Shown: positions 54,174-56,719 of the stretch, piece by piece | Numbering within the stretch: the first letter of the stretch is position 1 | How the letters are laid out: each line of letters begins with the position of its first letter | NCBI RefSeq assembly: GCF_013414195.1 | Contig: NZ_JAATTV010000003.1 | Span: forward strand, 62,001-126,000 | DNA from: Psychrobacter sp. BI730 | Lineage (GTDB): Bacteria; Pseudomonadota; Gammaproteobacteria; Pseudomonadales; Moraxellaceae | Direction of reading: 5' to 3' | Length of the DNA: 64,000 bases | Translations under genes and position numbers: made by a program | The notes under the pieces: generated by a model | The model's database searches: none | Seen by the model: only the letters and a program-made list of their open reading frames with translations | What the model was told of the DNA's origin: nothing

Positions 54174-54251
54174 GCGCAATATCCATGCTCATTATTTTGC
54201 ATCGTTTAACGATATTTGGACAGTCGAAAACTCAACATTTAGCAAAATGTA

Positions 54252-54358
54252 AGCAAAAAAAGGCCCACAGAGGAGGTACTGTGGGCTGAGGAAAACGGGT
54301 CATGTATTAGCTACACAGGCCGTGGTCAAGAGTTGTTGTAATTATTGGTGCTCTCTAC
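54252..54358 (-). ncRNA. Candidate small RNA with anti-Shine-Dalgarno terminator loop
   Basis: On the minus strand a promoter at 54364-54391 is followed by about 105 nt and a perfect terminator: stem GCCCACAG / CTGTGGGC, loop TACCTCCT, then T7. No ORF is present. The loop sequence is complementary to AGGAGGTA, so the RNA could pair with ribosome-binding sites. It does not resemble 6S, 4.5S, tmRNA or RNase P RNA. The start coordinate is estimated from the -10 position. It is a prediction without homology support. Confidence 0.55.
54255..54286 (-). terminator. Orphan minus-strand terminator
   Basis: The 8-bp GC-rich stem GCCCACAG / CTGTGGGC with an 8-nt loop is followed on the minus strand by seven T. 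The nearest plus-strand gene ends 80 nt before it, but the T-run is on the wrong side for that gene. Confidence 0.78.
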
Positions 54359-54363
54359 TGTTA

Positions 54364-54391
54364 TTTATAAGGGTAATAATTATCAATACAA
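54364..54391 (-). promoter_or_regulatory. Promoter of the candidate small RNA
   Basis: Minus strand: -35 TTGTAT (54386-54391), 16-bp spacer, -10 TATAAA (54364-54369). Its spacing equals that of the tRNA promoters in this window. It faces the orphan terminator at 54255-54286. Confidence 0.5.
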
Positions 54392-54768
54392 TAGGTGGAG
54401 ATATTTACTTAGCTATTAATATTTACTGATTTAAGTGTACAAGTGTTCTGGTACAGTCGCTATGATAGCGCAATTGAGTGCTGTCTGGCGGTTTTGGTTA
54501 CAGTATATTACGTTGTAAAAATCCAAAAGATGCAAAGACTGGTATGAAGCACTGATATTTAGAGTAAGTAGCGCAGCTCTATGATGAAATCATTCATAAA
54601 GGCTTCCAATAATTTCAATACGTTATGTCGATAGGAGGTCATCTAGTCGATCTTGATACCTTTCTTTATATATTTGATAACTCAATCGCTGCAGAGATGG
54701 CATGACGCCTTGTCCGAAAAATGCTAAGCTATCTGCCATTATTATGTTCATATTAAACTGGGTTTGCC

Positions 54769-56445: not shown

Positions 56446-56474
56446 TGCCTATCAATAGATAATAGATAACGCAT

Positions 56475-56517
56475 AAAAAAACGCCAGTCGCATTAGCCAC
56501 TGGCGTTTTTGTTTTTA
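56475..56517 (+). terminator. Terminator after the lipoprotein gene, shared-loop family
   Basis: The 9-bp stem AACGCCAGT / ACTGGCGTT with loop CGCATTAGCC is followed by TTTTTGTTTTT. It is identical to the terminator at 57869-57908. Confidence 0.9.
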
Positions 56518-56719
56518 TTCTAGTAGGTGATGCATCTACTTTGCTTATTTGCTTAAGTTTTATCACTCAAGCTATTAAAATTAGGGTGATTTATGTATGT
56601 AATTGATAGTATTAGTTTTGGAGAAAATAATAAAAAAATGTTTAATTTTTTATACCTTATTAAATTTTTTTATTCTAGAATGATTGATTTCTACGTCTAG
56701 AATATTAAAAGGAATTCTA

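Follow-up and report, generated by a model that had tools for sequence, protein, structure and literature searches.

What does the minus strand of the gene-free interval between a renalase-like gene and pgsA encode in Psychrobacter sp. BI730, and could its product act on translation? The interval spans positions 54174-54768 (595 bp) of the window, that is, the whole analysed stretch of 64,000 nucleotides, and both flanking genes lie on the plus strand. A first-pass annotation had proposed that a minus-strand small RNA ends here in a terminator. Its description of the site was accurate: the hairpin, the T-run and TTGTAT-16-TATAAA are found where it placed them, a transcript of about 105 nt ending at 54252 is predicted, and the minus-strand open reading frames are short (the longest listed has 62 aa and a TTG start). 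Our analysis indicates that the interval very probably harbours a real, hitherto uncatalogued small-RNA gene on its minus strand. The sequence of this RNA is fixed in part and could mask the ribosome-binding sites of mRNAs. The features of the locus are collected in Table 1.

Table 1 Features of the candidate small-RNA gene, with window coordinates and the observations on which each assignment is based.
Feature	Position	Strand	Basis
Predicted small RNA, ~105 nt, from the proximal promoter	54252..54357	minus	Promoter-like site and terminator, conserved 3' end
Terminator hairpin GCCCACAG-UACCUCCU-CUGUGGGC, 8 bp stem	54263..54286	minus	Covariation
Terminator loop UACCUCCU with CUCCU core	54271..54278	minus	CUCCU in 85/89 loci
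U tail, seven T	54255..54261	minus	Follows one C 3' of the hairpin; present in aligned copies
Linker UUUCCUCA, proposed seed	54287..54294	minus	UUUCCUC in 89/89 loci
Upstream hairpin, closing helix ACGG/CCGU	54295..54323	minus	Paired and covarying in 26 selected copies
AAY-repeat stretch, possible Hfq site	54330..54348	minus	AAYAAYAA in 57/89 loci
Proximal promoter-like TTGTAT (54391-54386)-16 bp-TATAAA (54369-54364)	54364..54391	minus	Related sites in relatives
Conserved TTGTACACT element	54434..54442	minus	≤1 mismatch in 77/89 loci
TATCAT, candidate −10 hexamer of a second, distal promoter (RNA of ~200 nt)	54462..54467	minus	TAT[GC]AT after the box
Box GTAATATACTGTAA (GTAA-N6-GTAA), possible response-regulator site	54498..54511	minus	GTAA-N5-7-GTAA in 85/89 loci

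The anatomy of the site alone does not exceed chance, since a scan yielded two terminator-like sites compared to 2.4 expected in shuffled sequences and seven promoter-like sites compared to 6.2, the TTGTAT-16-TATAAA promoter not being among them; the comparison with related genomes does exceed it. The predicted fold of the 105 nt has a z of −2.7. None of the Rfam 15 covariance models matched within the interval at E ≤ 5. Elsewhere in the window, the minus strand of 56464-56575 has overlapping Rfam matches to rliE, Thr_leader, NsiR1 and SurA, all four below threshold, which probably reflect a strong hairpin or terminator.

A DNA search of 105 genomes of the genus gave matches in 92, which often covered no more than the hairpin region and the DNA next to pgsA; 89 loci were extracted, and a partial copy (L093) was left out of all counts. 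The core is far better conserved than either flank. Its 45 nt (54298-54254) are 89-100% identical to those of five relatives at medium distance (L018, L019, L023, L024 and L040). With the same relatives, identity is 66-87% over the RNA body, 62-70% over the promoter stretch, 62-83% over 54519-54460, 39-67% over the 249 bp upstream and 41-80% over the 80 bp downstream. For nine closer relatives the corresponding values are 98-100% in the core and 66-90% downstream. No reading frame is conserved over the last ~175 nt, where the longest ORF has a median length of 11 aa and ORFs of at least 20 aa occur in 6 of the 89 loci. A covariance model (R1) found a single match in the genome of the strain itself and matches in 90 of the 105 genus genomes at E ≤ 3.3e-8, or 97 at E ≤ 0.1. 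These data indicate a single-copy RNA gene that is kept through most of the genus and usually adjoins pgsA, at least nine genus genomes having pgsA without the RNA element there.

Within the family Moraxellaceae the same model matched 175 of 348 genomes at E ≤ 0.1, including five of genus g8 and nine of genus g14. Matches were weaker in g2 and g4, and weaker in Moraxella than in Psychrobacter. pgsA stands beside the match in 11 of the 20 distant loci that were retrieved, but not in the other nine; as this adjacency is an independent check, it lends support to weak distant matches. In genus g2, presumed to be Acinetobacter, which belongs to the Moraxellaceae, none of 18 fetched loci lies beside pgsA and the model matches are weak (E 0.001 and above). 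Two types of weak match recur in g2 away from pgsA (L147, L149, L156 and L157; L151, L152, L155, L159 and L160), one of which has GUUUUCC ahead of a terminator. Two loci of g8 (L133 and L135) carry a terminator that shares the UACCUCCUU loop and the CCCACAG stem but lacks UUUCCUC, directly after the apparent end of a protein gene; this likeness is perhaps convergent. Ten genomes in which the model gave nothing better than E 0.05 were read upstream of pgsA, and UUUCCUC was found there in none; one of these loci (L251) is cut by a contig end. A sequence pattern run over named genomes, which required an extra base after CUCCU, gave four real matches (three Moraxella and one Psychrobacter MAG); its silence in the other named genomes says little, because 0 of the 89 genus copies and 8 of the 20 distant copies match it.

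Compensatory changes support both predicted hairpins. In the 8-bp terminator stem, 99.8% of the cells in an alignment of 56 copies (55 distinct) are paired, and five of the eight pairs change on both sides, a number reached in none of 500 shuffles. For the three-helix structure we used 26 copies, chosen from the 55 distinct ones for the apparent fold seen when the linker was held unpaired; 12 copies of another clade were aligned apart and left uncounted, and 17 were not aligned over the upstream hairpin. Among the 26, 95.2% of cells are paired (99.0% in the closing and 84.6% in the inner helix of the upstream hairpin, with two-sided changes in each), and seven pairs change on both sides, as many as in 1 of 500 shuffles, while the number of further pair types is reached in 36 of 500; since these copies were selected, the upstream hairpin should be read as a majority feature only. 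Some copies of the 12-copy clade close it, as judged by eye, with ACUUA/UAAGU. Unconstrained RNAalifold returned the same architecture with 15 pairs and an unpaired linker, and two linker bases pair weakly in the single-sequence fold of the window copy. The first-pass annotation had named covariation of the stem and conservation relative to neighbouring bases as checks on its small-RNA gene. Both came out in its favour, and genus-wide conservation together with covariation supports a minus-strand gene that ends in the terminator.

The emphasis which that annotation placed on the terminator loop was not borne out in the form proposed. CUCCU is kept in the loop of 85 of the 89 loci and UUUCCUC in the linker of all 89, counts that are biased upwards because core similarity was the criterion by which the loci were retrieved, the counts of upstream elements being less affected. 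The linker is also present in all 11 distant pgsA-linked copies, five of which (L129, L130, L131, L136 and L138) lack CUCCU while retaining linker and stem. The most constant part of the predicted RNA is the linker UUUCCUC between the hairpins and not the loop.

Further elements lie upstream. Their rates are indications and not probabilities, because the shuffles were mononucleotide and the relatives are not independent: of the 89 loci, 57 carry AAYAAYAA (shuffles 4.7%; 36 of the 49 clusters left after removal of redundancy), 52 carry TTGnAW-15/17-TAWHWW (4.6%; 20 of 49 clusters), 77 carry TTGTACACT with at most one mismatch (5.4%), 85 carry GTAA-N5-7-GTAA (3.2%) and 62 carry TAT[GC]AT after the GTAA box (0 in shuffles), with a spacing of 29-30 nt in 59 of these 62. 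A box resembling TGTAAGCAGATGTAA, three mismatches being allowed, is found in 31 of the 89 loci. In the window copy the 8-mer AAYAAYAA is missing, and only the 6-mers AAUAAU and AACAAC are present. An A/ARN-type 5' motif is a feature of Hfq-dependent trans-acting small RNAs; another, an intrinsic terminator with a U tail, is present here and conserved in the aligned copies. The genome contains one match to Hfq (E 2.6e-29).

The near-fixed distance between the GTAA boxes and a −10-like hexamer suggests control by an OmpR-type response regulator. Nine OmpR-family regulators are encoded in the genome, one of them BfmR/RstA-like (PDB BfmR, E 5e-67; the NCBIfam RstA model scores best, below its cut-off) and a second CpxR-like (CpxR model best, below cut-off). 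The combination of box and −10 occurs at six places in the genome, one of which is the RNA gene, and at none in the reversed control. The RstA box is given as TACA-N6-TACA in PMC4117788. On that description, TGTAAGCAGATGTA, a sequence seen in some relatives, reads TACA-N6-TACA on the opposite strand, and the half-sites of the GTAA box are spaced like those of the RstA box read on the opposite strand; in contrast to the RstA box described there, one half of the distal box is imperfect and the proximal box of the window is degenerate. We did not adopt BfmR as the regulator: the box is RstA-like and a homologue exists, but a CpxR-like regulator is present too, and a GTAA-N6-GTAA box upstream of bfmR is not conserved (3 of 30 regions, compared to 3.3% in shuffles). 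A GTAA-N6-GTAA box with a −10 also lies ahead of a lipoprotein gene, Pal/OmpA-like by eye, elsewhere in the genome (L271 ~1501; G000:C41:55751-55798); this gene possibly shares its regulator with the RNA gene.

Which mRNAs the linker could address was analysed in several ways. The strain's own genome has 13 occurrences of the pattern TGAGGAAA-N1-12-ATG, as many as of the reversed-pattern control; in three relatives the pattern and control counts are 15 and 11, 16 and 13, and 21 and 5, where some excess is expected because the pattern resembles a ribosome site. The pairing energy of the linker is −4.5 with the 42 start regions of the window compared to −3.4 with gene interiors, and 80 of 200 shuffled linkers paired at least as low with these start regions. 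The pattern recurs at nuoE, a TPM-domain-like gene and ilvC (all named by eye) in two or three genomes out of four, a recurrence for which stop codons lying upstream or ordinary ribosome sites may be responsible. In the strain's own genome TGAGGAAAA lies at the ribosome site of mscL. As a target mscL was nevertheless rejected: TGAGGAAA is present in 14 of 24 readable mscL loci (30 fetched), mostly in near relatives, the others having AGGAG-type sites, and two genomes (G034 and G072) contain the RNA without an mscL match.

Several explanations of the element can be weighed against these data. We lean slightly towards a trans-acting RNA that would block ribosome sites mainly via UUUCCUC. The first-pass annotation had instead suggested a broad translational repressor, in which the exposed UACCUCCU loop mimics the anti-Shine-Dalgarno tail of 16S rRNA and pairs with many AGGAGG sites. 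The loop is indeed exposed in both the single-sequence and the RNAalifold folds and its CUCCU is widely kept, but the distant copies that lose CUCCU keep UUUCCUC, and the loop pairs about equally well with start regions (−4.29, n = 42) and with gene interiors (−4.07), 181 of 200 shuffled loops being at least as low. A broad repressor is therefore unlikely on this evidence, and the loop as the sole functional part was discarded because of the same distant copies, which also keep the stem, and the null pairing test.

Titration of a protein would be another function, in the manner of CrcZ of Pseudomonas, an RNA of ~400 nt with several AANAANAA motifs that is under the control of CbrB. AAY repeats would then sequester Hfq or Hfq/Crc, and the 3' part would serve stability and termination. 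The candidate RNA resembles CrcZ in its AANAANAA motif, found in 58 of 89 loci compared to 16% in shuffles, and Hfq is present in the genome. It differs in its predicted length of 105-200 nt and in having one short AAY stretch only, which in the window copy is reduced to 6-mers, and its most constant letters are those of linker and hairpin; such a decoy thus seems improbable. The element could also be no separate RNA at all, merely a conserved terminator at which antisense or background transcription arriving from the direction of pgsA would stop. The scan counts, which do not surpass those of shuffled sequences, are compatible with this. A terminator would, however, not need an invariant UUUCCUC, a second covarying hairpin or promoter elements at a fixed distance; moreover, the element stays in place in the 3.2-kb loci L024-L030, in which the renalase-like gene was not found, and some distant copies do not adjoin pgsA. 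We regard this explanation as very unlikely.

With somewhat more belief than doubt, we propose a stress-controlled RNA of the Hfq type that would block ribosome sites through UUUCCUC. An OmpR-family response regulator bound at the GTAA-N6-GTAA boxes would turn the gene on under some stress, yielding an RNA of ~105 nt here or of ~200 nt from the distal promoter. Hfq would hold this RNA via the U tail and the 5' AAY repeats, and UUUCCUC, aided by the CUCCU loop, would pair with ribosome sites of the GAGGAAA or AGGAG type, thereby stopping translation of a limited set of mRNAs.

Known RNAs appear to act in similar ways. Aar, a small RNA of Acinetobacter, represses carO and bfnH (PMC11472050). It is described as having a CUCC seed that covers ribosome sites and two hairpins, features that it shares with the candidate, as it does the family; its seed, however, lies in a single-stranded 5' part ahead of both hairpins, whereas the seed proposed here is the linker between them, and none of the 18 loci from g2, presumed to be Acinetobacter, yielded a pgsA-linked match. 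The comparison with anti-Shine-Dalgarno RNAs of Alphaproteobacteria, drawn in the first-pass annotation, stands as an analogy only. The NfeR1/alpha-r14 (cuckoo) RNAs of rhizobia likewise expose a C/U-rich anti-Shine-Dalgarno motif in an unpaired loop, but are described in PMC10746234 as Hfq-independent and as having three hairpins with an identical CCUCCUCCC in each, whereas two hairpins, one CUCCU loop and the UUUCCUC linker are predicted here. Aar and NfeR1 differ from the candidate RNA in the features tested.

In one relative, an island has inserted at the 3' end of the gene. In genome G058 an island of ~12.5 kb (L265 1382-13952; G058:C14) with a tyrosine integrase (PF00589) separates the renalase-like gene from the RNA. 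Each edge bears an A run with GCCCACAGAGG-GGT, the two forming an imperfect direct repeat, so that the insertion point is within the terminator and an intact 3' end of the RNA remains towards pgsA. The 3' end of the small-RNA gene may thus have been used as an attachment site; this integrase was seen in no other fetched locus.

A more specific scenario combines these elements into an envelope-stress RNA so far found only in the Moraxellaceae, in which BfmR/RstA-type control would act via tandem GTAA-N6-GTAA promoters, the anti-Shine-Dalgarno motifs of linker and loop would silence envelope mRNAs, and the terminator would serve as an integration site for mobile islands; we consider this whole combination rather doubtful. 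No description of this RNA, or of any other small RNA from Psychrobacter, was found in the literature on small RNAs of Psychrobacter and Moraxella, most of the subscription papers being outside our reach. A single-copy RNA that most of a cold-living genus retains, whose seed is fixed and whose upstream boxes are conserved, offers a clear entry point for experiments. If it is under the control of a BfmR-type regulator, it would represent the RNA arm of an envelope-stress system in the Moraxellaceae.
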